A stretch of 64,000 nucleotides of DNA from a virus. Positions 4,288 to 64,000 of the stretch are shown here, one piece after another (positions within the stretch are counted from its first letter, which is position 1; every line of letters starts with the position of its first letter). The position numbers and the translations under genes were made by a program. The DNA is taken from positions 1 through 64,000 of IMG/VR virus record IMGVR_UViG_3300034418_003613. One strand, given 5' to 3'. Under the pieces are notes generated by a model that searched no databases, had not been told where the DNA came from, and saw only the letters and a program-made list of their open reading frames with translations.

Positions 4288-4533
4288 ATGAATGGTAAAT
4301 CACGTGTAATGAATGCCTTATATGCTAAGGCTCTTGCAGATAAAGAAAAAGCTTTAATGGCTTTAGATCTCTTAGAGAATAAAGCTGTTGGAATTGGAGA
4401 TCATACAGCAGATGATTTTTTTGAAGATGCAGAGAAAGCTCTAGACCTTTTTATTTCAGCAAATGAAAGGCTGATAACAATTGACAATTACTTTGATTTT
4501 CAAGAAGAAATTGAAGGTCCTCCATTTGAATGA
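4288..4533 (+). CDS. Hypothetical protein before TerL, 81 aa
   Basis: Short helical acidic protein; the stop TGA overlaps the TerL start (ATGA), indicating coupled translation. The leader reads AAACTTTAAATCATG, nearly the same as that of the gene at 13978. No catalytic or binding motif was recognised. A role in terminase assembly is possible from position only. Confidence 0.6.
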   Translation: MNGKSRVMNALYAKALADKEKALMALDLLENKAVGIGDHTADDFFEDAEKALDLFISANERLITIDNYFDFQEEIEGPPFE

Positions 4534-33100: not shown

Positions 33101-33483
33101 CAGAACAAGTGTCTGGATTACTAAGAATCCACAATCAGTTCAAGAATGATCCGATGAAAGGATTAGAGTATCCAAAAGTGAATCTTTCAGATATTGAAAT
33201 ACTCTCATCAAAAGTTGAACAGAAATATCGTATTAATCAATTCTGGGATACTACCCATGATAGAGGTGAGTTTTCAAATGCTCAGCAAGAGATATTTAAA
33301 ACACGCCGGAATGGTTATATCAGAGATTTAAACTCTGGCAACTTAGATTATAGCAAGTCTGCTTTTGAAAGAAAAAAGTTTAGACATTACTATAACAAGT
33401 TCTTATTAACAAGAAGGATTTCAGCAGATAGAAAGATGCTGTTGAAGCTAAATAATACCAAACTTAATTTATCATTCAGGTGA
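27109..33483 (+). CDS. Giant tail 'muzzle'-like protein with inserted vWA domain
   Basis: A 2124-residue protein after the ring-type genes, matching in place and size the muzzle/tail-hub protein that forms the tail end of crAss-like virions. The N terminus (NVFVKGMNKDINPSYEP) and the beta-rich body to about residue 1520 look like one long structural protein. A von Willebrand A domain lies at about 1553-1830 with an intact metal-ion-dependent adhesion site, D1562-x-S-x-S (MDYSAST), later Thr, and ITDAR. It is flanked by Cys-rich EGF-like pieces (CPPGYSYNPVTQNCE before, CSCPTGYTLVY and CECPPP after). The body resumes at about 1890. The vWA insert probably binds a surface ligand. Confidence 0.75.
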   Translation: MAKKKQNIQNKGADSVETNVFVKGMNKDINPSYEPKQSWTHARNAANNSTDGDVGVLGNEPANLACGVVPYTVIGTVHLYADEWVLYTTDNTNSEIGLFDDSKCEYKTLVNSKCLNFNKENLIQGAAKENFDCSWQVYWDDGRNPSRTLNLDNIPYQQTVTSTPGDDCVIYEDTTILDCEKLRLAPLLDTPIVKLSKAPDGGSLRNGMYQAYIAYTVNEQRVTDYIGVSNLQSLFDHDGTAGSLDIKVSNLDKDFEFFELVILSNNANNYAAKKIGLYSTETSSISVDYIDQSLVSIPLELLPARSPAYEKSDAMFVVNDWLIRKGPTEQFDFNYQPRANQIKTEWVVAEYPAEYYRKGGNSTGFMRDEQYAFFIRWIYNTGERSKSYHIPGRPPKSSFRNQFNEQINSSEDGLAGGGGLNVLSSREKNFQVYDTSTIQATGLNNPTGDGGLVIAKGEMSYWQSTEKYPATQPEIWNATYTDVTTGVNIGGTGDSRFDLCGKYIRHHKMPTEERGPELHLTNDSNSRIRVLGVQFSDIKPPVFNDGTVIPNIVGYEILRGSREGQKSILAKGIFRNMRKYNIPEGGQTGGNPVGLYPNYPYNDLRPDVYFHDGQRRDDHRTDGTQKYADSIDDFKPLTSVAKKFFTFHSPELMFKRPFLNAYETRLYGDLSGTSVGHFIKSENHPQNKLIRNIASIIASIIGIGYAISRIRGTQESELQGLSINNNLVANDYLDVDVLGVGGGASVPYVPFVGPPGTGALYETISAEQGINLGVGSLFDLLGEILLQDVVDISTIWLGQGAVDLTMSFGQGKNLTLASRTPGTDSGKNIERFKVEHPSGNLPKFLQAAFGYFIARFNIADGGNEIIELIYGLIKEEDFAFKHNSHGFYDTFTTRPNGQVYRTRNEDSNYIGSTYQAFNGFKINNLFRPDTVAVATTDNIDDPSIVDKSRYVISGDGGGPFSESVANKYLRNPEQEQKRDISAVYGALKFDAENQYGQLDGIKQVQMRGTIELVSANNPQTKFSSSPIFAGDVYINRYTEKTIMPIFADFLNGQPDQYTYDYLQRVNIPYPRYWMDTRKFDMTSLANEIVGLSLPKTSDPLPSDLFYLDRHNASIHGSLNIFDGDNDPNPVFAMRYGYMYTHVNGIQDFFVESEYNLAQRDWEEAQDKRFYDPYEYANTDDLFHADIIKKDNYYKYDISLSVSKFLTQISNFGEVQTRDYDPKVAEDCFSYYPKRLIYSLQAKTESKKDFWRVFLPNNYKDFKNPINVIKPINKSGALVLFPYQSPQMFQGLDTLKTDLGTKLTIGDGGLFSQPFQNITNSDLSNEYGSCESHRTVINTPMGVFFISQAQGKIFHYTGKLENIANNGMKWWFNKYLPSQLIKQFPALEETPLADNPVVGVGCQSIYDVNNDVVYFCKRDFRVKDQYKDQVNYTVQNGFTFNGFVLQPQVNDDAPILSTKITLGDPLYFEDVSWTVSYDPKAKAWISFHDWHPELCMPSINHFLTTKEKQLDQPYCPPGYSYNPVTQNCEITIGDSAPAIVNVEEVLANLQTQTCDIDLVLCMDYSASTNANQQSILKNQHQFISDFLDNSDVQSALSSGRLQMGFTAFGSAESTFMNLRTSGNVQKTMANTFDPDTVIDGLGFSSSATAYYNTLDPSGQKTNFCRGIYNAFEVLNSKSTTELGDRSGNANFIQAVIVITDARCRANTTSPPNSFNEKNNCRAGGSSIGMTYQSSLLGGGGPANQYIYTVWCGENQDVFDSQGNIKISDDCANATQGIYPFTGNDILDNLTGDANTPNRQNQYIILSQQPLNDQKTDYVAQQIINSICSFSCSCPTGYTLVYPGNNGYTEPTGDCNDVNPPICRKIGCECPPPINPKGLTTKIGNCDDVYKAGPNGDPNYVNPNPVICSFFYEDITPAVTTGSGIWRHNYRCDLFANYYGVDYPWEVELVENTGQNVNTVRSLEYQLESYVYKGDLHDGCGDDRWHDLDFNFDELIVHNTEQVSGLLRIHNQFKNDPMKGLEYPKVNLSDIEILSSKVEQKYRINQFWDTTHDRGEFSNAQQEIFKTRRNGYIRDLNSGNLDYSKSAFERKKFRHYYNKFLLTRRISADRKMLLKLNNTKLNLSFR

Positions 33484-45985: not shown

Positions 45986-48900
45986 ATGGATTTACCTAAT
46001 GAACCAAATGTAGAGCAGGACTCTAAGGTACCAGGCGCAATAGATATTCCACCTTCTGTTCCTACAGATAATTTTGTGTTTCAACCATCTGACAGTTGGT
46101 TGGATACACCAATGACTCAGGAATTTACCGCAACTCTTGATCCTGACTATGTAGCGCAGATAGAACACTACAAACCTATCATAGATAGATATGCGCCTGG
46201 TTCCTTAGCTAATTTTAATACACCATTTCCAGGACAGTCTGTAAACCAATATAATCCTGTAAGCCAGCAGACTGCTCCTGATATCTCTACTGCAGAAGGA
46301 GCATTAAGAGATTTACAGATGACTTTAGATCAAGGCATGTCTGTAGATGCTATGGGTACTGTAAAGCAACGCAAGATTCAGGATCCAATATTTGCTTCTA
46401 GAAAAGCTTCACAGTTTGATAGATATTATGAGCATCCCAAGTTTGCTGAGTTAGGATTCCATCCTTATGCAAACAATGAGCAGTTTTATAATACTAACTC
46501 AGACATCTTTGATGATATGTCTAGGATGAGTGGTCAGTTTGGACAACTTGTTGGTTCTGGATTTATCAGTACATATAGAAGTATTGGAGATCTTTTTGAT
46601 CAAGATGAGAGTTACTTTACCCAACCAGACCTCCAAACTGCTGATGAATTTGAAGAAGCTATGGCTATTGGTATGTCTACACGAGAAGGTGTGGGTGCAT
46701 TTGCCAACAACCTGTTATTGAATTCTGGTTACACAGTTGGTATTATTGGGTCTATTGCATTAGAAGAATTAGTATTAGCTGGTCTAACTGCAGTAACTGG
46801 TGGTGCTGGTAGTGCTGCACTTGCTGCTGGTACGGCTAGGAATGTTGGTAGATTAGGGCAGGTTGTAGCCAACTCTTTTAAACTGCCACGACTAGCTAAA
46901 GCTACCCGGCAGATGCTGCAGACTCTTAACCAGACTGACAATGCTAGAGATTTCTGGAAGGCCACAAAGTCTGGTGAATGGGGTATCATGGGTACATTGT
47001 TTGCACCAGAGACTATGGCTGCTGTCAAGAGTTTAAAGACTGGTAAGAATGCTGCACAGAACTTAACCAACCTTGCTAAAGCTCAGAATGTATTTGGTGG
47101 TTTCTATAGAGACTTAAGAGCTGTCAACCTTGCTTTTGCTGAGAGTAAGCTTGAGGGTGGTATGGTTTATAACCAACAGATTCAGAATGGTTTAGCTATT
47201 CAAGAGGCTAAGGGAGACCTGAGTCCTGAAGCATTAGATCGTGTTAGAGAGGGTGCTGATAGAGCTGCCTTTGGTACTATCATGATGAATGCTCCTTTGA
47301 TTTACTTCTCTAACCGGCTTGTATTAGATAATGCGCTGGGTGGATTTAATAAGTCTCTGGGTAGATTGATGAATGATAAGATTACCGGTGTAGGTAGAAA
47401 GATCATTCAAACCACCAAGACCATTGGTAAAGATGGGAAGATTGCTAGAGATGTCTTTGATATTGCCGAAGATGGTCTCAAAGGCTATCTAAAAAGAATG
47501 AAGGCTGCAGGCGTCAAAGGGTCATTAAGACTTGGTGCTGGAGCTAGCCTTAGATACTTTGCAGCTAACGTAGCTGAAGGTATTCAAGAGATAGGACAGG
47601 AAGCAATTGGATTTGGTACAAAGCAGTACTATTCTAATTTGATCAATGATCCTATGTATGGAGGAGCGGAGATGGTAGGTACTGCTATTTCTTCTGCTGT
47701 TGACAGTCAGTTCTCTGAACAGGGTGTTGAGACTTTCTTATCTGGTTTCTTGATGGGTGGTGTTGTACAGGGACCACAGAAGCTCTTGTTCCAAGGCATG
47801 CCGAATCTTTACACAAGAGTTGCTACACCTGAGAAGTATAAAGAGTATAAAGAGAACAAGAAAAAGTTTTATGACAGTCTGAAGGAGACTCACAACAAGG
47901 CATGGAATGCTATGGCAGAGGATCCTAATGCAGTGTTTGATCCTAACAAATTAAACTTCTTGGTTCAGAAGGAGGTAGCCGCTGAGATGAAGAGATCTGC
48001 CTATGCTGATGATCAGTTTGGGTTTATGGATGCTAAAGACTTTGGTAAGTTTCAGCAGATGTTTACCATCATGCAAAATGGAACTTCCGACCTGTTTAGA
48101 AAGCAGTTACAAGATTATCTAAACCTTACAGATGAAGAGCTAGTTCAAGCATTCCCTGTATCTAAGAACGAGGTTAAGTCTGGTAAGCTAAGGGAAAGAA
48201 TTCAAGATATGATTACTCAGATAGATAAGACTGAGGAAGCATATAATAAGAATAAGGACAAGTTTGAGAATCCTTTTGATCCACAAAAATTTGACAAAGA
48301 CTCAAGGGAATATCGTGATGAGCAGCTAAAGCAGATTGCCTATGAGCATGCTAGATATCTCTATATGTTTACAGAGGATGGTTTCAATAGAGCATTAGAG
48401 AGAGCTGACACAATCTATAATGAATTAGCAAGTGATCCTATCTTAAGTAAGATTGCTGCCAATGACATTACCGTGTTGCTTGATCAAGATACTTTAGCTA
48501 AAGAGGTTGAGACCTTGATGCTTGAGATTGCTACACTTGAGGATACTGGTGAGAATAAAAAACTTAAAGAGCAGAAACTTGAGAGGTTAACTAAGCTCCA
48601 AGCTCTTTATGGAATACTTTCAGATCCTGAGAATCTTACTTCTAAGGGTGTGTTTGATAGAAGAAAGATCAACAAGGTTACAAAAGCGTTTGAGGCATAT
48701 GTACAATATCTTGCCGATACAAAGGATGGTTTTGTAGACAGAAAGCGGATCCAAGAAGTTCTTAAGAAAATTGTTGATTATAAGGCACTTAAGGGTAGAG
48801 CTCGGGTATACGATAAGGCTATCCAGTATCTTTCTAATCCAAAGAATCTTGATGATATTGTTGCAAGACAATATGAGATCAATAAGCAAATATTCAAAAG

Positions 48901-51900
48901 GAATAAGTCAGAGTACATTGAGAGGGTTAAGAAGTATGTAAATAAGAATGAGGCTAATACTCTATTAAATGAGTTAGTCAAACTTGGCGTATATCCAGAT
49001 GCAGAACAAGCTACAGAGTTTTTAAAAACAGGTGATGTTAGATATCTATCAATCTTCTTTACTGAACAGGGTATGGTTGACCCTAAGTTTGACAGAGAGT
49101 TATACCAGCAGATTGTTGAGAAGCTTGATGTTTATAAGCAATCTACCGAAGTAGAGGAAGAGCAGACTGCAGAAGAGAAAGAAGTATCCGCTGATACTAA
49201 GAAGTCTACAGACAAGATTGATGAAGTCTTAGATAATGCTGGAGTAGATGCACCAAGGAGTCAAACCTTTGGGTCTACCAAGAAAGTAAATCCTGTAGGT
49301 AAAACCTTACTACAAAAACTCTACTTAAAGTATAGAACCAATCAAGCTAACTTAGCTAAGAAAGCTAAGAACTGGAGCTCATGGTTAAATACTAAAGAAG
49401 CCCAGGTTGCAAACAGAGCTTATGAGGCTTTAAAGCAGATGTGGTATGCAGAGATTGAGGGTAAGTATAAGACCCAGAAAGCTTTGGACGCTGCATATAA
49501 ATCAGATAAAGGGTTTATTAAGTGGTTGGCTCTGCAAGAAACAAATCCCGATGTTATTGATATTCTTGAGGAGTCTGGTTTAGCTTTCTCAGATTTCTAT
49601 AATACCTCTACATCAGAAGAAGTTGCAGATACAGTTGATGCTGAATCTTTTGACGGTGAGGTGGTTGAAGGTAATATCCCAGGTAGTAGTTATGTGATAG
49701 TAAAGTATAGTACTGTAGATGAGACTGGTAACCCTGTTACTTACTATCAGATAAAGACACGAGATAATAAAGATCTCTCTGATGAAATTGTGAAAACAGC
49801 AGGCATCAGTCCTGGCGCAACGTTTCCTACATTAAATAAAGCTAGTAAGGCTAGAGCCAAGTTGGAAGAGGAGGCTCCTGCAGCAACAACATTTGATTTT
49901 GATGGTGTTGAAGGGTTATACAGAGGAGCTACAGTTACAGACGAGAACGGTAAGGAGTATGTCATTACGTCTAGTGCTAAGAGTATTCAGAAGTATAAGA
50001 ATCTTTCATTGATTCCTATAGATAAGGTTGATCTTAAAGGCAAGGAGAGAAAGGAGGCTACAATTATTGTGAAGCCTGGTAAGTTCAAGAACAACTACGA
50101 ATTAGAGAAGATAGGTTTTGAAGCTCTTCCTAAGAATGTAAGTCGTTTAACTTTAGCTGAAGCTGTTAGAGCATATGGTCATCAGAATCGTAGAGGTAAA
50201 GCTAATGAAGAGAGCAGAGAGGATGCAGGTAAAAGAATTGATGCTATTGTTGAAACTCTTACTCCTGAGGAATTAGGGCAACTTGAGTTGGTTATAACCC
50301 GCAATCCAAATGGTGGGGAAGTAATTCAAGATGAGTTTGCATATGAAGATCAAGAGGCAAACCCTCTGATTTCCAGAGTTGTAGAGTTATATACTATAGG
50401 TCTGCGTATCTCAGATCCAGACATACAGAAGAAAGTTAATAAAGCCCTAAAAGAAAAGGGTATAGAGAAGAGTGATTCTTCTGAAGGGTTCTTTGCTTAC
50501 ATGCCTAACTCTAATGTACAGATCCGAAACGCTGAAGGTAAAGTAATTGATCCTAGACAGATTGATGATCAGACTGCAAAGAATACTTTCTTTAGTACGT
50601 TGCCTGTGCCCAATGCATTGAGCATTATTAGAGACAACTTTACTATCCAGAAAAACCTTATTCGTTTTGTTGCTGAAAAATTAGGAGATGCAGACTCTGT
50701 CACTATACCATACTCAGAGTTAGAACAGTCCGGTAATTTTTCTATAGTGCGTAATAATGGCAGTTTTGATTTAAACAGTGATCCCAAGTCATTAAAAGAT
50801 CTGGCTTATCATACTGTAGACGGCAACATTATTATTCTTGATAATAGAAAGTTTGCCAGTAAAGAGGGTGAAGTAACGCGTAGGACAGATATTAAAACTA
50901 ACATTGATGATGTAGATCAAGAACCTACAAATGAAAAGCTCAAAGAAATGCTTGGTGAGAGCCTTTACAATAAGGCTAGGAATATGGGAGCATACGTTGC
51001 TATCATCAAATCTCCTAATGGTCAGTATACCCTTGCTGAGTTGAAACCTACACAAGCTACTGAAGAGGAGGCTGTTGGTTTATTTGAAGAGCTTGTTAAA
51101 CGAGCTGCTCAGACACGTCAAGAAAATTTGTCAGATCCGGAGGACATTACCTCTGATCGGAAGGATCTTTCCTACAATGTTGAGTGGAACAAAGATTTTA
51201 AGACTCGTTTATATATTAAGACTAAGCCTGGTTTTGATGTTCAGATTCAGGTTGATCCTTCTGGAAAGATTAGCCTTAATGTCTACGACAAGAATAAGGA
51301 AGAGCCTGTTCTAAAGCATACTAAGAAAAGTAAAGGCAAGGAAGGCAAGCCCGCTCCTATTGTTTTCCACCATTCTGCAATTGAAACTATTGTTGATAGT
51401 GGTGATTATGCTGCTGCACTAGACAATCTATTTGACACCTTCAACCAGCAGGAAGCGGCTAAGGCACTTGGTTTAAAACTTGAGAAGTCCAACATTAGTA
51501 AGAGTTTTGAGAAGCAAGCTGATGTTGATACCATTATTGAGAACACTACTACTACTCTTGATGATAGGGTTAGATTCAATTACAGACTTACGCTACAACA
51601 GGATTCTGCAGATATAGAAGCAGGCAGAAATGTTCCTGATCAGGTTGATGAGTCTAACAAAGAAACTAAAGAAGAACAGAAAGATAATGAGACTCTAGAG
51701 GAGAAGATAGAAAGAATGAGTCAAGAGAACGAAGCAGCTTCAAATGAAGCTGCTGAGACAGAAGATCCTGAAGTTCAAAATGAGTTAAGCATTAAAGAAT
51801 TAAAAGCACTAAAAAAAGCAAGAAGGCTTGAGATAATTGAAGAGCAAAAGAACTTACCTAAAGATCAACGACAAAAGAATCTTAACAAGTATATTCAGAA

Positions 51901-54900
51901 TGATCCTGAGATAAAAAGACTTACTAATCTAATTGCAAACAATTCTGCTAATAAGATTGTGTCACCAAATCTTTCTTTCTCAGACGTAGAGGACATCAAT
52001 GTATTTAAGTCTTGGGCAGAGAATGCCTTGCCTGACTTTATTTCTATAGATGACATTACAACTCTAGGTGATAACCTCAAGGCCGGTGGTGTAAGAGTTG
52101 GCGCTTTTGTTTTGGATCTGCATGATATTGCCGGTAATACCACAGTTAAAGGAACAATCTACACTGGAGCCAGCAATCCATTTAGATATCATGAAGCATT
52201 CCACTCTGTCTTTAGACTTCTTCTTACAGATCAAGAGATAGATAAGTATCTGGGTATAGCGCGAAGAGAGGTGAGAGAAAAGCTTAGAAGGGAGGGTAAG
52301 AACTTTAAGACTGAGTTAGAAAAGTTTAGAAACTCTGCTGACACATATACTAATATGTCAGAGGCTAGATTGATTCAAGAATACTATGAAGAATATTTAG
52401 CAGATCAGTTTGAGTTGTTTAAGACTAACCCTAGAGCTACTCAGACCAGTAGTGAGAATAAGTCTTTGTTTACTAGAATTCTTGAATGGATTAGAGCTGT
52501 TCTTGGAAACTATACTAAGAACGAACTTACTGAGTTATTTGAGAACATTGACGCTGGAAAATATAAATCAGCATCTACTGTAATAAACAGATTTACAGAT
52601 GCTGCTATACAAGGTGTAACTATCCAGGCTAATGCCCTTCTTCCATATGATGAGATTAAGTCTGATGACGGCACCTCATACAAACTATATATATCTGCTG
52701 AGGCAGCAAGTAGTTTAGTGCGTAGCATGTCGGCTATCTATATTCAACGAGAGGAGAATAATACAGATCCTAATAAGACTAGAGATAATCTTCTAGACGA
52801 AGTAATAGAAGACTTTCAGAAGTTATATGACTGGCAGGATCCAATGAATGAAGATCTTGATCCTGATCAGATTGATTCAATGTTGAACTATGAGTCTGTC
52901 TTTGTTGGCTATAGAGATGCTCTAAAAAGATCTTTGAAAAAATATCTTGCTCTGGTAGATATAAGCTTTGATGAGCAGATCTATGTTGCAGAGCAGAAGG
53001 AAGACAATGAAGGATTAAGAGGTGTTGATGATTGGGACAAGGATGCATCCTTGATTGGGGGCTTTAGTTCTTTATCTGCAAGCTTGCGTAGATTCATAAT
53101 GAGTACAACTGTGGCAGAGAGTGATGTCTTTGGTCACACTGAGGTAAAGAAGGGTGAGAAACTTATTGTACCTGTAAACTTTAATGAAGCATATAATGGT
53201 TTATTAAAAGCTGTAAGAAGTACAACAGATCCTGGTGCGCTTTTACGTCAGATGTATTTGTTTGGTCAGAATAATCCACAGACCGAAGCTGTTGTTAATA
53301 GACTCTTTAGTGCAATTGGAGTTACTTATGAACAGATATTAACTGAAGAGAACTGGGAATCTGGTGTAAAGAGACCTTTGTTCTTTAACTCTGTCATCAA
53401 AGGATTGGAGAATTTCCGTGTTGACTACTTATTTATCCATAGAGACTCTGGTAGTGGTAGGATCTATACCTATAGTGCTGCAAATAGAGATGATGCAAAT
53501 ACTCAGATAGACAGATGGGGTCAAGCTTATTCTAGATTATACCGTGATAAGCTTAGAGTAGATGGAGCGTTTAGGACAGAAGCTGTGAATTTCTTAGATA
53601 GATTCTATAGACAGCTTGGTAAAAATCCTAAAAGTATGACTGATCAGAAGCTTGATGAAGAAGTAAGAAAGCTTCAGACAGGTTTCAGAGAGTATTTAGG
53701 TATACAATTAAGCAGGCAATATCTTGAGCTTCACTTTATAAATAGACTACAGAATCTTACAGATAATCAGACTCTTAGGAAAAAGGAGTTTAAAGATGTT
53801 GTTACACTAGATCAAGAGGATGTAAGTAACATGAAGGCTGCTGTAGAGAATAATGAATATCTGTTCAGCACTTCTGATACAGGCATGCAAGGTGTCCTAA
53901 AAAGAATATCATTATCTAATGCTCCTTTTGATGAAACTGTAGGTGCTTCTGTATTTAAGAATGCTAATGGTGATTTAGTATTTGCTCACCAGAAACCAAC
54001 TCTTCATTTAAAAAAGGTAGCTGCATTAAATGGAGTGGATAAGCTGGAAGAGCTGAGAGAGAAAGAAGAAATAGAAGGTGTAAGATATCTAGAGAATAAC
54101 TATCTTTTGAATGATCCGGCTTTCAAAGAGATGTCTTTAGAAAGAAGACTAAAGGTCACTAGAGTATCAGGGTCTAAGGTAGGTAAGATTGAAGCTGGCG
54201 AGGATGGTATTGAAGAACAGGGTAGGTCTGAAGGAAAAACCTATGGTGATTTTACAGCAAAGGAATTTGCTGCAGCTTTGGTTAATGCCTATACGAATAC
54301 ATTTAATGCAACAACAGGTAGGTTAGATGGTGAGATTACTATCATCAACGATGAAGGTAAGGAAGAAAAGGTGGCAGTTGCACCAGTTCTTATCCGAGTA
54401 ATTGAAGCATCTAACACTGGTGATATGATGGAACTACCAGTTATCAAGGCTGTAGAACTTGCTAAGAATGGAAGAGTTGAGTTAACTGACAAGGCTATGC
54501 AAGCCTTTGTAGATAACATCAAGAATGAGTTTAAGAGGATTCAAACTGAGATCTCTCGTAATCCTGCAGATAAAAGAAATATTGAGGATTACTACAAGAC
54601 TGAAGAGGGTAAAGAAGTTGGTAGAAGTGTAACGTTTCATGAGAACGGCACATTGCTTCAGCCTGCTAAAGAGATTGATGTATATTCAAGATCTGCCACT
54701 TTTGTAACATCTGCTACTGCAATAGAAAGATTACGTGAAGGGACGCAGAAAGCCCTTCTTTACGCAGAAGACACTGCTAGAGATGTTATCAAGTTTTTAG
54801 ATACAGATGAGTCCAGACAAGCATTTATCCAAGAGTATAAAAACGAAAAGAATAGAATTGAAACCGTTGTTAATAACTTAGGAAAGGTAAAGGTTACCAA

Positions 54901-57900
54901 AGAGAATAGGGAGGCAATGATAGAATTGCTTGGAGATGCGATATCCAATGAAGAAACGGATCAGTATAAATATTCTTACACTCTTGGTACAGCAACATAT
55001 TACTTAGAATCAAGAGACTTAGCAAGATTTTTAGAAGGTAGAAAATCTATGTATGTCTATGTTTTGAGTGATGAATCATTTGCTGGAACTAAAGAGAGTG
55101 AGGCAGATCAAGCACTAGAGGAAGTTGGCTTGACTCCTAATAACCTCAGAGATTATAAGACTGAGATTGAAGAAGCTATCAGAGAGAATCCTGAGTTGAG
55201 TTTTGAAGAGGTAATAGAGTCTCTAGGTGGTATGGAATCCTTTGAAGAATTCTTGAGGTATAGACTTGATATGGAGTTTAAGAACTTTAGGGACCGTGCT
55301 AAGTCTCTTATGCCTGAGAGTGAGTATAGTAAGTATATAACGTCAGGTCTTACAACAAAGGCTGGTGTTTCTAGTGGAGAGACTGCATTATCCGCTAAGA
55401 GATTAAATCTTGTAGAAGGCAACCTTGAGCATAATTTGAAGCAGATCTTCTTTAATGATTTCATAAACACTAGAGCCATAAATCAAATATTGCTTGGTGA
55501 TCCTTCGATTAGTTTAAAGGACGCAGTAGATGCTGTAAAAAGAGCCAAGATGCAGAACGCGGCTTATGATAGTGCAGCTAGTATTATCAGTGCTCCAGAA
55601 TACGGCGTTGAACATCCTGTACAGCAGATGAATCTATTTGGTTTTACAGAACCTAAAGTAGCTGCTACGCACAACCCAGGAGACGTTACTAAGAATGCAG
55701 ATGCTCAGCTGTGGCTTACCTTAAAGTCCTTTAGGTATATGTGGTTTGGTCTTGGTAAGCTGAGTGCAACACAAGCTCAATTATTAGATAGAATTGAAAA
55801 AGGTGAAGACATTCCGTATGAGGAGCTTTTAGGCAATGCAGATAAATCTAATGAGAGTTTTGCCAAAGTAAAGGCAATGCTAAACTCTAAGAAGTTTGTC
55901 TATGGTGATGGGAAAGTATTTGTAAAGATGTCTGCTTTTACCCTTACCAAGTCATTTACATCAAGACAGGATGAGAATGGAAACTGGGTACCCAGAGCAA
56001 ACAAGCTTGCTCTTCACAACCTGAGAGTTAAGATGGAGCAGTTTGAAGAAGCTCAATGGGACAATGGTAACGGTGTAGGTACTATTGCAATGGCTGCACC
56101 TGTCTCAGCATTAAAAATGATGAAGGAGAATATTCAATCTATTGATTCAGTATTAGCTACCGACACTCCTTTTACAGCTGAACAATCCATGCAGCTTGAT
56201 GCAAACTTTATGGGTCTTCAAACAGTGAACCCATCTAACAAACTTATAATTACTGACCCTAACCAGATTAAGACAATTGTTACTTCTGAGCAAAAGGATG
56301 ATACTGAAGTTATTCTAAATGATGAACTTACTACTATTGGTAAGATTAGGAAGAAATATAATAAAGCTATTCGTGATAGGGTAAGCTTAAGATATGCTAC
56401 TAAGAGAAATCTGATATTTGATTTTGACGTTGAGTATGCAATGGAGGCATTGGGTAGAAGTAAAAAGTCTGGTAAAATAGAACCAGATCTTTATGTATAC
56501 CTGCAGTATGCTAGATCTGCTCTTGAAGCATCTAACTCTACAAGTAATATTCTTGAGATGTTCTCTGTTGATAAGAACGGTCAACAGAAATATAATCTGA
56601 ATAATCCTCAAACTGTTAAGAAGTTTGAGCAGCTGTTCTTGTCATTCTTCTCTAAAGGTGTATTTGCCGAGAAGACTACAGGTATGAGTGTTGCTTTAGT
56701 ATCTGACTACGGCGCAAGAGTTTATAGACGAGTATTCTCTGTGGATGAGAATGGAATGCCAGATAAGCATGAGGTTATTAGAGAAAATGTTTGGGAGCAA
56801 ATGTCAGATAAACCTGATGTTGTTTTTAATATTGATGATGGAGAGAAAGCTCAAGATGATAAGAATCTTACAGGTCTTGCTGCAGCTATCAAGAAGGCAG
56901 GCTCTAAGGGTGTGGTTATCATTGACCGTCTAAGATCCAACTTGAAAGAGTATGATTCTAAGGGTAAATACACGGGTCAAAGATATTCTGAAGGTATGCT
57001 ACCTGCTCACTATACTGAAGTTGGAGACTTGATTGCAAACTCTGATAGACCAATTCCAGATGTTGTTGCTAAAATGTTTGGAGTACGTATCCCTTCACAG
57101 GATAATCACTCAACAATCAATATTAAACTTGTTGATTTCTTACCGGGATTCTATGGGTCTTCTGGTATTTTTAGTAGAGAACTTATTGAGATATCAGGAG
57201 CTGACTTTGATATTGATAAACTCTACATCCAGAGTAAGAACTTTTATGTAAAAGATGATGAGTTTATAGAGTATGGTAAGGCCAAGACTAAGAATGGTCA
57301 GTATCAAGACTACATTACTGCTATGAATGCCAGCGTTAAAAAGCCTGGTTCAGACTTAACCCAAGCATTAGATAGGTTTAGGAGGTTTGGAGGTAAAAGA
57401 CAATTTACTAAAGCTCAGCGTGATAAACTTTTAAAAGCAGGATTCACAGAGAATGCACTTAAAGCATTGAGCGCAACCGGATTACCTATAACCTATGCGG
57501 AGTATCAAGATCATAAAGAAAACTATGGGGAACCTTATGAAGAGGCTATTGATAATGATGTATTAGACTACAAGTTTGCTCTTATGGGTAATGAGTATGT
57601 TACTAATACACCTGATGCTGAAGTTCCAATCTCATATGAGCCTGCAGACCTTAAACCTTTGACCGAGACATTAAAGAAATTGGCTGAAGAAGTACCTTAC
57701 TTCAAGAATATCATAGACAATGAACAAATGGATGTCGATAACCTTCTTGGTAAGCTGTTAAGTTTTGCAGCTAACAAAGAAGGAGCTGCAAATATTGGAT
57801 CAGTTGTACTGCCAAACTTGTATTTAAACTTGCTCCAAGAGTATGATGTCAAAATTAAACACATTAAGCAGGGTGGTCAGACAATTACTGCAAACCTTAG

Positions 57901-60808
57901 GTTAAACGATCAAACCTTTAATGACTTTGGAGTTACCAAGGATGATATTGGTCAATATAGAACTCAGTATGTAATTTCTGCATTGATTACAGCAATGACG
58001 GACAACGCCAAAGAACGTCTGGCAGCTAAGCTTGGTTTGAATAAAAACGCATTATCTGTAGTAGCTAACATGACAGCATTGGGTGTACCTATTAAGACAT
58101 CTATTCTTCTTGTTAACCATCCTATTATTAGAGCTCTCTATTTTCAGGCTATAAATAAAGAAAAAAAGACTTCTCCCGGAATTGCTACATTAGTTTCAGA
58201 CCGAATGAGCGATCTTATTAAGGCTTATCCAGAACTGGAAGAAAATATACCTCAAGTCAATGATGATCTTTTAATTCAAGAGATAGATAAGAATAGATCT
58301 TTGATGACGGTAGAGACTCTCACGAAAGCAGTAAAAGAAGAAGAGGAGATTACAAAAAGTGACGTTGCTGAGGAATATGCTATTCTAAAACAGTTTCAAA
58401 TAGCTCATAACATCAAAGAGTATACTAGTAATATTGGAGCGATTCTAAGTCTTACTAAAGGGTTAGGTCAAGATCTGACTAGTGTGGATGAAACTCATCA
58501 ACAAATTGAAAACTTAGGTTTATATCTTGATTCCAAAGATTATGCTATTTATGAAGAGACTAGAATTAAAAGCCAGCTTCCTGCTATAGATGTAAGACCT
58601 CTTATGAAAGACACATGGCAAGGAAGGTTTTTAGAAATCTTTAATGAGATTAACGATACTGTTTTGCCTGCGGTCATGCTTACTCGGACACCAATCTTTA
58701 AACAGGTATACTTTAATCTACTCCGTAATATTGATAACTATAAAGCGGCAAGAGATACTAGATTTAAAGACAAGTTAAGGGTAGACCTTTTAGCGTATCT
58801 AACTATCAAGGGGTACGAGCATAACATGATGGAGGAAGATTCAAAGCATGCTGGATCTTTAAATAATAGTATGATATACCCACAGCTAGAGGGGGAGAAA
58901 ATTACAAACGTAGTTGAAAAGTTAAGAAAGGAGTATCCTGGAAACTTCTTCTTAGAGAGTTTTGTAATTCTAAACCGAGCACGTCAGGAGGGTAATAAGA
59001 TAGGTATTGATGCAGCTGAGGCTAATACATTTAACAGAATGAGTGATTCTGATAAGATGGAGCTACAGACATCCTTTGCCATAATCTATGGTGATCCTGA
59101 AACAAGACCTGAGGCAATGAAGCTTATTCATTACATGATGGTCAAAGATGGATTGTCATACAGAAGCGGAAGCTTACTAGATGCTATTACACCATTTACA
59201 TATGAGAAGTTTTTGAATCAGATCAATACTGTTCAGAAAGCTGTAGGTAAAGATAGTACTGCTGAATTGTTTAGCGGAACTTTTGGTATGTCTCTGGATG
59301 AGTTGACTAGAGAATTCATACAAGGTTACATGGGTCACGTTAGTACAAAAGATAATCTTGCTACTATTAGAAGTGGTGTAAAAATCTATAATCCTTTCCA
59401 AGGTAAAGTGGAAGTACAATCTAAGATTTATACCCCTCATCAACTTGAACGTAATGAGAATACTCTGTACATCTTTGGTGATAATGCTGCTCAGAATGGT
59501 CTCGAAGGAAATAAAATAGCTAGGCAATATGGTAATAGCTTTGGCATTCCTTATAAGAAGCTTCTCTCAGATGCAGAGGGCACCTACTATACAGATGAAG
59601 ACATTGACGATTACACTGTAATGTTGGAAGAGACATTCGATGTCTTAGAGCGTTTAATGAATCAGTATGATACTACAGTTTTCCCACAATATATCATACC
59701 TAAAAGTGAGCTCAAGAATATTGAGAAGAATAGCCCTAAAGTTTTTAAAGAACTAAAGGCTGCATTAAAGGTAAGATTTGGTTATGATCTTCTTGGGAGT
59801 AAGAGCAAGCCTAAGCCGGCACAAAAAGCTAAGGGTTATGTCTATATAGATAAGAGTACAGACACATCTAGATTGATTATGAGTGTGAAACCTGGTATGC
59901 AACCTTTAGTGACAGATCAAAGGTTTGCTAGACGCCGCGTTTCAATAACAGGTTCTGATCAAAAACAGAGAATGAAGAATGAAGCCAAGATAGATGAAGC
60001 ATTTTCTGGACTAAATGGTTTTGGAACTAGAAATGTTAAGTTAAAACTGAAGGATAAGGATTCTTACTTTAAAGAGTTTGTAGTAAAAGAGATAATAAGA
60101 GTTAATATAGGTAGTAAAGATGCACCAAAATATGTATATTTTAGATTAGCAAAGTTTCAAAGTGCTGTAGAGCCTACACCTAATATGTTACCTAGTGCTA
60201 ACTATGCTGAGTATGTTGAGTTTGATCCAGAATTTTCTAGAGGTCAATGGGCTGGTGGTTTTATGTTTGGTGAAAGCGTATCTAACAAAGACATACAGAA
60301 GTATATTAAGGAAAACAATGATGGGCTGGGTACTATTCTTGATGAGGATATAGATGCTGCTTTAGATAACATTGACTTTGATGGAGATCCTAGCCAGAAT
60401 GCTGCTAGTAAGAATGCTGCTGATGGAATTAAAAGCGGTCTTCCTGTAGATTATGACGGTAAGAATGTTAATGTTGGTGGTAAACCTGCTGATCAAGTAT
60501 CAGACAAAGATGTAGATGCGGCTGCTGATCAGGCTGCTGACCCAGAGAGAGACCCGACACCTGAAGAAATAGACGCAGGTAATGCTGCTCTTGCCAGTTT
60601 ACTAGGTAATCTTGGACCATCAGATGAAACTACCTATCCTGAGTTAACAAGCTTCTGGGATGAAAACATTCAGCAGGATAAGGATGCCTTAGATAAGTTA
60701 TCTAATCAAGGAATTAATAACTTAGAAGATTTTATAGATAAGTTTAAGAATGGCATTTATGCAAATGAGGAGGCTTATATAGATCAAATTAAAAAGTGTA
60801 TAATTTAA
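45986..60808 (+). CDS. Giant virion RNA polymerase polyprotein with zincin domain (4940 aa)
   Basis: Residues about 1-620 have hydrophobic stretches (about 240-290 and 565-605) as in ejected internal proteins. Residues 620-1960 are helical and mixed linker domains. At about 2000-2190 is a zincin-type metalloprotease with H2069-E-A-F-H2073 and a likely third ligand E2135/E2136 (YYEEYLADQ). From about 2200 to 4450 is the polymerase, with catalytic D3740-F-D3742-I-D3744 in SGADFDIDKLY, about 40 residues after RIPSQDNHS, mirroring the R-x-P to NADFDGD layout of cellular beta-prime. Crass-type virion polymerases use this DxDxD loop. Near 4490-4600 is an IFGDN-x-A-x2-G module. The end is acidic and disordered. 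It would transcribe early phage genes after ejection. Most crAss-like relatives divide this content among separate proteins. Confidence 0.85.
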   Translation: MDLPNEPNVEQDSKVPGAIDIPPSVPTDNFVFQPSDSWLDTPMTQEFTATLDPDYVAQIEHYKPIIDRYAPGSLANFNTPFPGQSVNQYNPVSQQTAPDISTAEGALRDLQMTLDQGMSVDAMGTVKQRKIQDPIFASRKASQFDRYYEHPKFAELGFHPYANNEQFYNTNSDIFDDMSRMSGQFGQLVGSGFISTYRSIGDLFDQDESYFTQPDLQTADEFEEAMAIGMSTREGVGAFANNLLLNSGYTVGIIGSIALEELVLAGLTAVTGGAGSAALAAGTARNVGRLGQVVANSFKLPRLAKATRQMLQTLNQTDNARDFWKATKSGEWGIMGTLFAPETMAAVKSLKTGKNAAQNLTNLAKAQNVFGGFYRDLRAVNLAFAESKLEGGMVYNQQIQNGLAIQEAKGDLSPEALDRVREGADRAAFGTIMMNAPLIYFSNRLVLDNALGGFNKSLGRLMNDKITGVGRKIIQTTKTIGKDGKIARDVFDIAEDGLKGYLKRMKAAGVKGSLRLGAGASLRYFAANVAEGIQEIGQEAIGFGTKQYYSNLINDPMYGGAEMVGTAISSAVDSQFSEQGVETFLSGFLMGGVVQGPQKLLFQGMPNLYTRVATPEKYKEYKENKKKFYDSLKETHNKAWNAMAEDPNAVFDPNKLNFLVQKEVAAEMKRSAYADDQFGFMDAKDFGKFQQMFTIMQNGTSDLFRKQLQDYLNLTDEELVQAFPVSKNEVKSGKLRERIQDMITQIDKTEEAYNKNKDKFENPFDPQKFDKDSREYRDEQLKQIAYEHARYLYMFTEDGFNRALERADTIYNELASDPILSKIAANDITVLLDQDTLAKEVETLMLEIATLEDTGENKKLKEQKLERLTKLQALYGILSDPENLTSKGVFDRRKINKVTKAFEAYVQYLADTKDGFVDRKRIQEVLKKIVDYKALKGRARVYDKAIQYLSNPKNLDDIVARQYEINKQIFKRNKSEYIERVKKYVNKNEANTLLNELVKLGVYPDAEQATEFLKTGDVRYLSIFFTEQGMVDPKFDRELYQQIVEKLDVYKQSTEVEEEQTAEEKEVSADTKKSTDKIDEVLDNAGVDAPRSQTFGSTKKVNPVGKTLLQKLYLKYRTNQANLAKKAKNWSSWLNTKEAQVANRAYEALKQMWYAEIEGKYKTQKALDAAYKSDKGFIKWLALQETNPDVIDILEESGLAFSDFYNTSTSEEVADTVDAESFDGEVVEGNIPGSSYVIVKYSTVDETGNPVTYYQIKTRDNKDLSDEIVKTAGISPGATFPTLNKASKARAKLEEEAPAATTFDFDGVEGLYRGATVTDENGKEYVITSSAKSIQKYKNLSLIPIDKVDLKGKERKEATIIVKPGKFKNNYELEKIGFEALPKNVSRLTLAEAVRAYGHQNRRGKANEESREDAGKRIDAIVETLTPEELGQLELVITRNPNGGEVIQDEFAYEDQEANPLISRVVELYTIGLRISDPDIQKKVNKALKEKGIEKSDSSEGFFAYMPNSNVQIRNAEGKVIDPRQIDDQTAKNTFFSTLPVPNALSIIRDNFTIQKNLIRFVAEKLGDADSVTIPYSELEQSGNFSIVRNNGSFDLNSDPKSLKDLAYHTVDGNIIILDNRKFASKEGEVTRRTDIKTNIDDVDQEPTNEKLKEMLGESLYNKARNMGAYVAIIKSPNGQYTLAELKPTQATEEEAVGLFEELVKRAAQTRQENLSDPEDITSDRKDLSYNVEWNKDFKTRLYIKTKPGFDVQIQVDPSGKISLNVYDKNKEEPVLKHTKKSKGKEGKPAPIVFHHSAIETIVDSGDYAAALDNLFDTFNQQEAAKALGLKLEKSNISKSFEKQADVDTIIENTTTTLDDRVRFNYRLTLQQDSADIEAGRNVPDQVDESNKETKEEQKDNETLEEKIERMSQENEAASNEAAETEDPEVQNELSIKELKALKKARRLEIIEEQKNLPKDQRQKNLNKYIQNDPEIKRLTNLIANNSANKIVSPNLSFSDVEDINVFKSWAENALPDFISIDDITTLGDNLKAGGVRVGAFVLDLHDIAGNTTVKGTIYTGASNPFRYHEAFHSVFRLLLTDQEIDKYLGIARREVREKLRREGKNFKTELEKFRNSADTYTNMSEARLIQEYYEEYLADQFELFKTNPRATQTSSENKSLFTRILEWIRAVLGNYTKNELTELFENIDAGKYKSASTVINRFTDAAIQGVTIQANALLPYDEIKSDDGTSYKLYISAEAASSLVRSMSAIYIQREENNTDPNKTRDNLLDEVIEDFQKLYDWQDPMNEDLDPDQIDSMLNYESVFVGYRDALKRSLKKYLALVDISFDEQIYVAEQKEDNEGLRGVDDWDKDASLIGGFSSLSASLRRFIMSTTVAESDVFGHTEVKKGEKLIVPVNFNEAYNGLLKAVRSTTDPGALLRQMYLFGQNNPQTEAVVNRLFSAIGVTYEQILTEENWESGVKRPLFFNSVIKGLENFRVDYLFIHRDSGSGRIYTYSAANRDDANTQIDRWGQAYSRLYRDKLRVDGAFRTEAVNFLDRFYRQLGKNPKSMTDQKLDEEVRKLQTGFREYLGIQLSRQYLELHFINRLQNLTDNQTLRKKEFKDVVTLDQEDVSNMKAAVENNEYLFSTSDTGMQGVLKRISLSNAPFDETVGASVFKNANGDLVFAHQKPTLHLKKVAALNGVDKLEELREKEEIEGVRYLENNYLLNDPAFKEMSLERRLKVTRVSGSKVGKIEAGEDGIEEQGRSEGKTYGDFTAKEFAAALVNAYTNTFNATTGRLDGEITIINDEGKEEKVAVAPVLIRVIEASNTGDMMELPVIKAVELAKNGRVELTDKAMQAFVDNIKNEFKRIQTEISRNPADKRNIEDYYKTEEGKEVGRSVTFHENGTLLQPAKEIDVYSRSATFVTSATAIERLREGTQKALLYAEDTARDVIKFLDTDESRQAFIQEYKNEKNRIETVVNNLGKVKVTKENREAMIELLGDAISNEETDQYKYSYTLGTATYYLESRDLARFLEGRKSMYVYVLSDESFAGTKESEADQALEEVGLTPNNLRDYKTEIEEAIRENPELSFEEVIESLGGMESFEEFLRYRLDMEFKNFRDRAKSLMPESEYSKYITSGLTTKAGVSSGETALSAKRLNLVEGNLEHNLKQIFFNDFINTRAINQILLGDPSISLKDAVDAVKRAKMQNAAYDSAASIISAPEYGVEHPVQQMNLFGFTEPKVAATHNPGDVTKNADAQLWLTLKSFRYMWFGLGKLSATQAQLLDRIEKGEDIPYEELLGNADKSNESFAKVKAMLNSKKFVYGDGKVFVKMSAFTLTKSFTSRQDENGNWVPRANKLALHNLRVKMEQFEEAQWDNGNGVGTIAMAAPVSALKMMKENIQSIDSVLATDTPFTAEQSMQLDANFMGLQTVNPSNKLIITDPNQIKTIVTSEQKDDTEVILNDELTTIGKIRKKYNKAIRDRVSLRYATKRNLIFDFDVEYAMEALGRSKKSGKIEPDLYVYLQYARSALEASNSTSNILEMFSVDKNGQQKYNLNNPQTVKKFEQLFLSFFSKGVFAEKTTGMSVALVSDYGARVYRRVFSVDENGMPDKHEVIRENVWEQMSDKPDVVFNIDDGEKAQDDKNLTGLAAAIKKAGSKGVVIIDRLRSNLKEYDSKGKYTGQRYSEGMLPAHYTEVGDLIANSDRPIPDVVAKMFGVRIPSQDNHSTINIKLVDFLPGFYGSSGIFSRELIEISGADFDIDKLYIQSKNFYVKDDEFIEYGKAKTKNGQYQDYITAMNASVKKPGSDLTQALDRFRRFGGKRQFTKAQRDKLLKAGFTENALKALSATGLPITYAEYQDHKENYGEPYEEAIDNDVLDYKFALMGNEYVTNTPDAEVPISYEPADLKPLTETLKKLAEEVPYFKNIIDNEQMDVDNLLGKLLSFAANKEGAANIGSVVLPNLYLNLLQEYDVKIKHIKQGGQTITANLRLNDQTFNDFGVTKDDIGQYRTQYVISALITAMTDNAKERLAAKLGLNKNALSVVANMTALGVPIKTSILLVNHPIIRALYFQAINKEKKTSPGIATLVSDRMSDLIKAYPELEENIPQVNDDLLIQEIDKNRSLMTVETLTKAVKEEEEITKSDVAEEYAILKQFQIAHNIKEYTSNIGAILSLTKGLGQDLTSVDETHQQIENLGLYLDSKDYAIYEETRIKSQLPAIDVRPLMKDTWQGRFLEIFNEINDTVLPAVMLTRTPIFKQVYFNLLRNIDNYKAARDTRFKDKLRVDLLAYLTIKGYEHNMMEEDSKHAGSLNNSMIYPQLEGEKITNVVEKLRKEYPGNFFLESFVILNRARQEGNKIGIDAAEANTFNRMSDSDKMELQTSFAIIYGDPETRPEAMKLIHYMMVKDGLSYRSGSLLDAITPFTYEKFLNQINTVQKAVGKDSTAELFSGTFGMSLDELTREFIQGYMGHVSTKDNLATIRSGVKIYNPFQGKVEVQSKIYTPHQLERNENTLYIFGDNAAQNGLEGNKIARQYGNSFGIPYKKLLSDAEGTYYTDEDIDDYTVMLEETFDVLERLMNQYDTTVFPQYIIPKSELKNIEKNSPKVFKELKAALKVRFGYDLLGSKSKPKPAQKAKGYVYIDKSTDTSRLIMSVKPGMQPLVTDQRFARRRVSITGSDQKQRMKNEAKIDEAFSGLNGFGTRNVKLKLKDKDSYFKEFVVKEIIRVNIGSKDAPKYVYFRLAKFQSAVEPTPNMLPSANYAEYVEFDPEFSRGQWAGGFMFGESVSNKDIQKYIKENNDGLGTILDEDIDAALDNIDFDGDPSQNAASKNAADGIKSGLPVDYDGKNVNVGGKPADQVSDKDVDAAADQAADPERDPTPEEIDAGNAALASLLGNLGPSDETTYPELTSFWDENIQQDKDALDKLSNQGINNLEDFIDKFKNGIYANEEAYIDQIKKCII

Positions 60809-60811
60809 GTT

Positions 60812-63800
60812 ATGGCTAGATGTCCAAATAGAAATACCCCGGAGTATAAAGCGTTGATGGGAGTATTTAAAACTAACCTGGCGACAGATAATGTTATCAA
60901 TGCCTGGCAAGATTTGAATAAGAGTGAGGCTTTTCCTACAGTAGAGGAGGCTAATGAGTTTATGAGCCGAAACAAAACTCTATATGCGTTAAAGCAAAGA
61001 GAGTTTGGTGAGGCTCTATTAGGTAATCTTAGCAGGCTTAGGTATATCAGCCGGTACAAGGACAAGTACTATGTCAATAACTCTGCTATCTCCACCTGGG
61101 ATAATGAAACTTGGGAGTTCAACCAGAAAGAGTTGGAGAAGAATCTTACTCTTATTAAAAGATACCTGCGTGTAAATAATATTCCAGAGGCTGCTGTAGA
61201 GATCAGAAAGACAAAAAGGAGTTATGAGATCTCAGTCAAGGATAATATGTTCTCACCTAGAGATATCATAGAGATAGAAAAGCAGAGAACATCTCCACGT
61301 TCTCATGCACTTCTTGAGCATCTAACAAAAATCACCCCTGGTTTGAACATTGCTGTAATGACAGTTGGTGAGGCAAGAGCTTTCTATGAGTCATTACCAG
61401 AGGAGCAGAAAGCTAATGTACCTTTTGATAAGGTCAAGTCTTTCTTTGTGAAGGATCAGGTTATCCTTATTAAGGGAAGAACTAGTAATGAAACAGCAAT
61501 AGAAGAAATACTTCATCCATTTGTTGACGGACTACTAATTGATAACCCTGAGCTATTTGACTCTTTATTAAAAGAAGCCAAGACAAACTTTCCTGTACTC
61601 TGGCAAACTATTCAAGATTCATATTCTGATCGTAGAGGGTTTACGCTGCAGCACAGAAACTTAGAATTAGTTACACAAGCACTTTCCAGGCACTTCAATA
61701 AAGAATTTGAGACCACTCCAACCAAGTCTTTTAAAGAGAAGATCAAAGAATTCTTAGAATGGTTTGCTAGCATAATCAAAGACTTCAACAAGTATCTTAC
61801 TGGTGTAGACTTAGTTATCAAGCCTAGTATGATCAAACCCAATGCAACTTTAACTGATATAGCTAAGCTGATAAATACATCAGATATTACTCTTCAGGTT
61901 GATAGGGTTGCTGATTCTAAAGTCCGCTATAGTCTCTCTCCTGAAATGCAGTCAACTCTTGATTATGCATTAAGACAAAGCAATGAGTTACAACAGGCTG
62001 TAATAAAACGCATGTTTAATGCTGCTATGCTAGCTGAGACGGAGTTTGATAGTCTTACAGTTAGTGATGCTAATCCTTCAGAGACTAGCAGTCTTGTAGC
62101 TTTTCATGAGGCTGATCATTCCTATATGGATATAGTAAATGGTGAGCCTTATCTCTCTACTACTACAGCAATCAAAGGTAAGATGGACCCGGAGAAAGAA
62201 GCTGAGGTCCAACTTAATCTAGATATAGGGAATGAGTTTGACATGATGCTTACTGCTATTGCATCAGATAAACTATTTGAAGATATCAAAGATCAGATCA
62301 AACTTCTTGATCCAGTCAAAGCAGAAGCTGCATATTCAACCTTGCATGCAATGTATAGGGCTGTTACACCTGAAGGAGCTGTGGCTATTCCTCAGGTTGT
62401 CTTGCATGATAGAGAAAGTAAGATTGCCGGACTTGCAGATCTTATAGTTATTACTAAAGAAGGTAAGATCAGAATTGTTGATCTAAAGACCAGCAAAAAC
62501 TTTGTTAGAAATAATGAGAGTTATGATGGTACAAAATGGGACTTACCATCAACATCACTGTTAAAGAGAAAAGGTTTTGACAAACTCTCAACTAAGCAGC
62601 AACATAACTTACAAGTGGCTATCTATAGAAGGATGGCTCAGAACATGGGTTATGAGGTTGACCAAAGTGAGTTTGCTTTAACTACAATCCACATCAAAGT
62701 TGATATAGAAGGTAAAGGAAAAGACCAAAAGTTCTTGGGAACATTCCAGGTAGATGATCTAGTACCTCATGCACCAAGTCAGAATCTAAATATGGTGAAC
62801 GCTCTTGTTCCCTTATTTGTAGATCCCGAGGTTAAGGAAGAGCTAGATGAAGAAGCTTTACTTTCTGATGATACACCAATTGATGAGAAGACCTTCTTAG
62901 ATGAGGACGAAGCTAAGATGGATATGCTTGATTCAGCTGGTCTAACTGAGTATGCTGTAATTGGTGGTGCACTGGAAGCCTACAAGGGTGCTCTTATTAA
63001 GAAGCAAAAGGCTCTTGAAATGATCCGCAGTAACATCTTTATGGACAGAAGTAAAGATGAGACTAGAGAATATATCTTCAACTCAATTGCTGCTATTTCT
63101 TTAGCCCGATCACAAGACGGGAAGGTGCAGAGTGCCTTATTTACACAGCTCTTGAAAGACGGTCTACGTGAGGTTAGAAAGTTTGTCCAGTTTATTGAAG
63201 ACCCACAAAACTTTGGTAAGCCCGAGTATATCAGCTATGCTCTGAACTTTGATAGATTTATTGAGACATATAGAGGTCTGTATAGTTTACAAGATACCGG
63301 GGATCTTAACGCTACCCAAAGAAGTTTGATTCTAAACTTTCAGATAGAGCTGAATAAACTTAAGGGTGATAAACAAACTGAAGGCATCATTGATGAAGCT
63401 ATTACCAACTATAGTAGAGAGATAGTTAAGAGTACCTCAAGTAAAGAGTTTACTGAGGCAGAGCTTGATGACCTCTTTACTATGGTTCAAGATATAAGCT
63501 ACCTTGAGTATCAGACCGGAGATCTTGCTACATCCAAGGATACAATCTTGGCTGTGATGGACAAGATATACAAGGCTAAGAAACAAGAGCTTCTAGATAA
63601 ATTAGAAACCAGAGACGCTTTAATACGTCAGAAGGCTGCCCGTTTACAACGCTTATCTCCAAATACAGATCCTCAGGAACTATATAAGTTCATGATTGAA
63701 TTTGATGAGGATGGAGTTCCAACAGGAAGTTATGTCCAAAGACTTGGTAAGAACTACTATGGTAAGTTACAAGAGTTAAGAGAAAAGCTTTTTGATGAGA

Positions 63801-64000
63801 ATGGTCAATGGAAAGAGTATAGGGATGTAACAGATCTAGACACCGCATCAGATGCAGATATTGCTTTCAATAAGGAATTATCAGAAGCTAGAGAAGAGTA
63901 TGGTAACTTCTGGAGAGCTGAGACAAAAGGTTTAGAGGGTAAACCTATATCGGGAAACTACCACTACTACGATAAGAAGTTTACAGATGAAAGAAAGAAG
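60812..64000 (+). CDS. Partial: degenerate zincin plus PD-(D/E)XK nuclease protein
   Basis: The gene starts at ATG 60812, three bases after the polymerase stop, and stays open for 1063 codons to the window edge, so the C terminus is missing. Residues about 200-310 resemble the zincin region of the polymerase, including the following helix (FLEWFASIIKDF), but the HExxH is E231-E-I-L-H235, so the first metal ligand is lost. Residues about 430-640 form a RecB-like nuclease with D543 (GLADLIV), D557-L-K559 (VDLKTSK) and Q601-x3-Y605, opening with FHEADHSYMD as in the nuclease at 2945. The rest is helical. It may be a partner or substrate of the polymerase polyprotein. Confidence 0.8.
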   Translation, partial: MARCPNRNTPEYKALMGVFKTNLATDNVINAWQDLNKSEAFPTVEEANEFMSRNKTLYALKQREFGEALLGNLSRLRYISRYKDKYYVNNSAISTWDNETWEFNQKELEKNLTLIKRYLRVNNIPEAAVEIRKTKRSYEISVKDNMFSPRDIIEIEKQRTSPRSHALLEHLTKITPGLNIAVMTVGEARAFYESLPEEQKANVPFDKVKSFFVKDQVILIKGRTSNETAIEEILHPFVDGLLIDNPELFDSLLKEAKTNFPVLWQTIQDSYSDRRGFTLQHRNLELVTQALSRHFNKEFETTPTKSFKEKIKEFLEWFASIIKDFNKYLTGVDLVIKPSMIKPNATLTDIAKLINTSDITLQVDRVADSKVRYSLSPEMQSTLDYALRQSNELQQAVIKRMFNAAMLAETEFDSLTVSDANPSETSSLVAFHEADHSYMDIVNGEPYLSTTTAIKGKMDPEKEAEVQLNLDIGNEFDMMLTAIASDKLFEDIKDQIKLLDPVKAEAAYSTLHAMYRAVTPEGAVAIPQVVLHDRESKIAGLADLIVITKEGKIRIVDLKTSKNFVRNNESYDGTKWDLPSTSLLKRKGFDKLSTKQQHNLQVAIYRRMAQNMGYEVDQSEFALTTIHIKVDIEGKGKDQKFLGTFQVDDLVPHAPSQNLNMVNALVPLFVDPEVKEELDEEALLSDDTPIDEKTFLDEDEAKMDMLDSAGLTEYAVIGGALEAYKGALIKKQKALEMIRSNIFMDRSKDETREYIFNSIAAISLARSQDGKVQSALFTQLLKDGLREVRKFVQFIEDPQNFGKPEYISYALNFDRFIETYRGLYSLQDTGDLNATQRSLILNFQIELNKLKGDKQTEGIIDEAITNYSREIVKSTSSKEFTEAELDDLFTMVQDISYLEYQTGDLATSKDTILAVMDKIYKAKKQELLDKLETRDALIRQKAARLQRLSPNTDPQELYKFMIEFDEDGVPTGSYVQRLGKNYYGKLQELREKLFDENGQWKEYRDVTDLDTASDADIAFNKELSEAREEYGNFWRAETKGLEGKPISGNYHYYDKKFTDERKK

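Follow-up and report, generated by a model that had tools for sequence, protein, structure and literature searches.

According to work cited in PMC10770324, PMC10172136 and PMC10136315, the virion RNA polymerases (RNAPs) of the crassviruses phi14:2 and crAss001 are cargo proteins of the capsid that leave it together with the DNA and transcribe the early genes independently of the host RNAP. The RNAP genes of crAss-like phages reach ~6000 amino acids according to a review (PMC10136315), and Yutin et al. (PMC7886860) describe a block of large multidomain proteins to which the DxDxD protein belongs. In phi14:2, a member of the Steigviridae, g067, g066 and g065 are adjacent genes, the first two overlapping by one base, with g066 coding for the catalytic polymerase (gp66; PDB 6VR4) and g065 for an RNAP-associated virion protein (gp65). 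The phi14:2 data used here are those of its GenBank record, the 6VR4 entry and papers citing them. The same order is observed in the window, the 64000-nucleotide stretch of DNA analysed here, which comprises bases 1-64000 of a linear virus record of 77087 bases. Judged by position, g067 and g066 are joined in the window into a single ORF of 4940 amino acids, with an ATG start codon and zero internal stops.

Genomic context and features of the locus

A crass-type muzzle protein is encoded in the window along with the large terminase (TerL), portal and capsid proteins, which places the virus in the order Crassvirales. These context genes are as follows:

4530..6716, plus strand: large terminase, by homology
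6724..9486, plus strand: portal protein, by homology
10968..12587, plus strand: major capsid protein, by homology
27109..33483, plus strand: crassvirus muzzle protein (PF25731, E 3.1e-33)

Located after the muzzle gene, at 33480-37769, is an ORF of 1429 amino acids with SLT lytic transglycosylase and LysM domains, which is probably a virion-carried peptidoglycan-cutting enzyme. The nearest annotated phage by portal (33.5%) and capsid (27.5%) is the cyanophage Leptolyngbya phage Lbo-JY46. This phage encodes a 1552-aa homologue of the N-terminal part of the cargo protein and a 2748-aa homologue of gp65; no catalytic RNAP was found among the large ORFs checked in its block.

The giant ORF and its downstream neighbour contain the following features:

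45986..60808, plus strand: fused ORF of 4940 aa, combining a zincin-type cargo protein, a catalytic virion RNA polymerase and a variable C-terminal tail, by ORF call and homology
47525..48436, plus strand: block, aa 514-817, homologous to the zincin-bearing cargo protein of the Steigviridae (cr112_1 residues 422-724; hhalign prob 95.8, E 7e-9)
51986..52573, plus strand: zincin-like metallopeptidase domain, aa 2001-2196 (hhalign to cr112_1, prob 94.6, E 7e-8; to cr118_1, prob 97.1)
52190..52204, plus strand: HEAFH zinc-binding motif, aa 2069-2073, by conservation; candidate third ligand E2135/E2136
52646..53005, plus strand: poorly conserved acidic junction between zincin protein and RNAP, aa 2221-2340
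53009..54643, plus strand: RNAP N-terminal part, aa 2342-2886, weakly matching phi14:2 gp66 214-753 (hhalign prob 55.6, E 1.2e-4)
55385..58816, plus strand: catalytic RNAP core, aa 3134-4277, matching phi14:2 gp66 843-1868 by hhalign and by AlphaFold2 with Foldseek
55925..55927, plus strand: K3314, candidate catalytic lysine of the beta-like barrel
56114..56116, plus strand: K3377, candidate catalytic lysine of the beta-like barrel
57086..57112, plus strand: RIPSQDNHS, aa 3701-3709, R-x-P element
57197..57220, plus strand: GADFDIDK metal-binding loop, aa 3738-3745 (D3740, D3742, D3744)
59420..59758, plus strand: DUF7831 (PF25176), accessory tail domain, aa 4479-4591
60812..64000, plus strand, ending at 66463 of the contig: separate ORF of 1883 aa, homologue of phi14:2 gp65 (hhalign prob 99.9, E 5e-37)

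The catalytic RNAP ORF is thus directly followed by the gene for a gp65-type RNAP-associated protein. Beyond residue ~4440 the tail is variable among the relatives. DUF7831, which lies in this hypervariable tail, is present or absent depending on the relative and was found in nine of the 35 sequences scanned, that of the window included, while the RNAP of cr126_1 is annotated with DUF1768 instead. Such tail domains may be accessory modules that can be swapped and that travel with the polymerase on delivery.

Identity of the polymerase

The sequence-only reading of this DNA had placed the catalytic loop of a crAss-type, single-chain RNAP at SGADFDIDKLY, with three aspartates from residue 3740, and had seen an R-x-P segment in RIPSQDNHS some 40 residues before it. 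Coordinates and wording are both borne out by the translation, in which the codon of D3740 occupies 57203-57205 and RIPSQDNHS starts at residue 3701, 39 residues upstream. The same polymerase assignment was reached when the profile of the window's clade was aligned by hhalign with seven crassvirus catalytic subunits, phi14:2 gp66 serving as the reference. The core aligned with gp66 with a probability of 100 and an E-value of 1.3e-43 at 18% identity, with ADFDIDK falling on SDFDIDK (D3740 on D1361) and RIPSQDNHS on RIPNQGQSS, upholding the latter as the R-x-P segment. A tblastn search with residues 3501-4200 against annotated phages likewise retrieved crAss-like RNAP catalytic subunits around the loop (E ~1e-6).

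The AlphaFold2 model of residues 3150-4349, built from 67 sequences, reached a pLDDT of 84.8 and a pTM of 0.85. When compared with the PDB by Foldseek, its sole match with E < 0.001 was 6VR4 (E 3.9e-26, prob 1.00), with a TMq of 0.59 across the 1283 columns of the alignment in a comparison of the whole core, followed by P23-45 gp96, QDE-1 and cellular RNAPs, none of them significant. The absence of two double-psi barrels around the loop had been named as the observation that would count against the polymerase; the predicted core, compared as a whole, instead best matches the two-barrel structure 6VR4. No RNAP match was obtained when the single protein was searched against Pfam, PHROGs, NCBIfam and PDB sequences, nor with a seven-sequence profile against PDB sequences, and the model covering the RNAP N-terminal part (residues 1985-2900) had no PDB match at E<0.001. 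Where these searches of family models and PDB sequences gave nothing, profile-profile and fold comparison succeeded. On the profile and fold matches, the loop is almost certainly part of a DNA-dependent RNA polymerase of the crAss-like virion type, with both barrels in a single chain.

The zincin-bearing half and its junction with the polymerase

A protease domain had also been read in the same ORF, and this is supported at the level of motif and homology. H2069, E2070 and H2073 of the HEAFH motif, together with E2135 and E2136, are invariant in 46 of 46 relatives, and the blocks at residues 514-817 and 2001-2196 are homologous to crAss zincin proteins, while the negative controls in hhalign, namely the RNAP and gp65 families, gave no match. 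Pfam did not confirm the zincin, and in the model of residues 1985-2900, where the stretch before the HEAFH helix is poorly modelled, the structure search was empty, so the protease domain is assigned by its motif and by homology.

The arrangement raises the question of whether the chain is a true polyprotein, in which the zincin would cut the junction at residues 2221-2340 and free the RNAP during virion maturation or entry. The invariant HEAFH and EE residues are compatible with such cleavage, as is a variable acidic junction (identity down to 0.21-0.27, 23% acidic) between two conserved halves which are separate genes in other crassviruses and whose fusion apparently arose twice. Against it, the junction is without conserved sequence, phi14:2 g067 lacks any HExxH motif, and other crassviruses place the zincin and the RNAP on separate polypeptides; since the zincin also occurs apart from the RNAP there, its substrate may be elsewhere, in the host or in other cargo. 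Cleavage of the junction is thus considered unlikely. Less probable still is the combined proposal that a metallopeptidase-bearing ejection protein was joined to the virion RNAP independently in two crassvirus lineages and that self-cleavage at the junction releases the polymerase in maturation or entry. If true, it would represent a self-processing polyprotein timing the activation of the phage's own transcription.

Distribution and origin of the fusion

Relatives escaped pattern scans based on the unaligned protein because the words chosen are not conserved, whereas the aligned core yielded 282. One fused ORF of 4283-5201 amino acids is present in 58 of the 60 complete IMG/VR relatives, the exceptions being one relative represented by L094/L121 and a second, L125, in which the ORF is split. 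These split ORFs would fit a giant ORF in which assembly or gene calling had wrongly merged two genes, but the fusion in 58 of 60 complete relatives from many samples, the nature of the L121 split (an indel against an intact contig otherwise ~99.98% identical) and the same fusion in independent Suoliviridae records leave that explanation with virtually no probability, and it is rejected. The ORF had further been described as unusually large, which does not hold given these relatives and the zincin-RNAP fusions of 4493-4946 amino acids in the Suoliviridae. Given this precedent and the published accounts (PMC10136315, PMC7886860), both the size and the fusion are of a kind already known.

The terminase scan of IMG/VR returned 597 relatives, the best 80 of which share at least 79% identity. 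In related contigs the RNAP core mostly shares 35-60% identity, compared with at least 79% for the terminase among those best 80 of 597, and by these sequence identities the RNAP appears to be evolving much faster than the terminase.

When the core sequences were placed in a tree by maximum likelihood, the window's clade grouped with Spirosoma-borne relatives, which are unfused, and fell outside the sampled Steigviridae, Intestiviridae, Crevaviridae and Suoliviridae; the branches are long. The Suoliviridae fusions stand apart from the window's clade in this tree. A constraint tree uniting all fused sequences in one clade was rejected (AU p 2.9e-6), a value to be read with the long branches, a possibly misleading model and the naming of the group after the first tree in mind. 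Because the core tree rejects a single fused clade, the simplest reading is that the fusion probably arose twice independently; a single ancestral fusion with later splits is possible but disfavoured.

The Spirosoma relatives occur in isolates of Spirosoma oryzae and Spirosoma terrae, where the crAss-type RNAP is carried on contigs of 229 and 574 kb, respectively, and both genomes also carry a related portal. At these loci the RNAP is not fused to the upstream protein, and in S. terrae the two ORFs overlap. They may possibly represent integrated or plasmid-like crAss relatives.

Conserved catalytic residues and proposed working

DxDxD occurs seven times in the 4940-aa protein, against a mean of 1.9 in shuffled sequences, one other copy, IDFDGDP at 4797, having a superficial resemblance to NADFDGD; because of these seven copies in an acidic protein, the motif alone proves nothing. 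All three aspartates of the copy at 3740 are retained in 46 of 46 full-length relatives, while each of the other six copies is retained in only 1-2 of 46. R3701 and P3703 are likewise invariant (46 of 46). The loop reads G(A/S)DFDID in 67 of 67 core sequences and K3314 and K3377 are invariant in the same 67, a set retrieved in part with GADFDID as search word, so that the conservation count is biased. DFDID is, however, also found in relatives identified by plain homology in long contigs, without the GADFDID search (L091-L096), and in L162 and L163, which lack GADFDID and were thus retrieved by another search word. Although the excess of copies and the absence of a direct match to Pfam, PHROGs or NCBIfam RNAP models or PDB sequences would suit an acidic motif present by chance in a large structural or tail protein that has no relation to RNA polymerase, conservation is limited to the copy at 3740, the gp66 profile alignment (E 1.3e-43) holds the aspartates in register and the predicted fold matches 6VR4, and by these profile and fold matches the chance reading is refuted, with next to no likelihood remaining.

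For the polymerase assignment, D3740, D3742 and D3744 would hold the catalytic magnesium ions. From general knowledge of two-barrel polymerases, the element containing R3701 presumably touches the incoming nucleotide, and we take K3314 and K3377 to be the probable lysines of the partner barrel. By analogy with phi14:2 and crAss001, from which we infer its activity, packaging and ejection, the polymerase would be produced late, packed in the capsid as cargo and ejected with the DNA, and would transcribe the early phage genes before the host RNAP is used. Because the zincin-bearing cargo protein continues in frame into the RNAP, the two would be packed and delivered as one chain, with the gp65-type partner supplied from the separate gene just downstream.

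Comparison with known systems

Phi14:2 gp66 shares with the window the core fold, the DFDID loop, the R-I-P element and an adjacent gp65 homologue. It differs in its low identity to the window's core (18%), in the coding of g067 (1797 aa, no HExxH) as a separate gene and in the DUF7831 tail, which is not reported for gp66 in the sources named above. The Suoliviridae (delta) are similar to the window in encoding, in a single ORF, a YHEA(F/W)H zincin followed by a DFD(I/V)D RNAP, in cr118_1 (4946 aa), cr125_1 (4502 aa) and cr115_1 (4493 aa), and in having a further large ORF of its own downstream, of 1633-1845 aa, at the place of gp65. Their N-terminal ~1600 amino acids, however, have no detectable match to the window, and two of the three genomes are recoded, with numerous in-frame stops when read with table 11. 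The existing annotations of these fusions are misleading, that of cr118_1 being 'exonuclease V' and those of cr125_1 and cr115_1 'nuclear pore complex-like'.

Unlike in the window, the zincin protein and the RNAP are encoded by separate genes in the Steigviridae and Intestiviridae. In the latter, the annotation joins the RNAP gene to a further RNAP subunit, whose C-terminal part is gp65-like. In p-crAssphage (Carjivirus) the neighbouring genes KP06_gp45 and gp44 provide both functions, but the zincin protein stands alone and the RNAP is joined to its gp65-like partner (gp44, 4070 aa). Thermus phage P23-45 gp96, like the window's ORF, is a giant virion protein (5002 aa) containing a two-barrel RNAP, which in this case is N-terminal, clamp-less and fused to the tape measure of a long-tailed phage.

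A large clade of aquatic phages thus carries a crAss-type virion RNA polymerase that is missed by current Pfam, PHROGs and NCBIfam models. The recurrence of the zincin-RNAP gene join poses a testable question, namely whether the product is a single chain of ~5000 residues or a polymerase released by the protease. Some gut crAss-phages already have this joined layout, to which the window adds two modest points, its presence in an abundant aquatic clade and the recurrence of the fusion.
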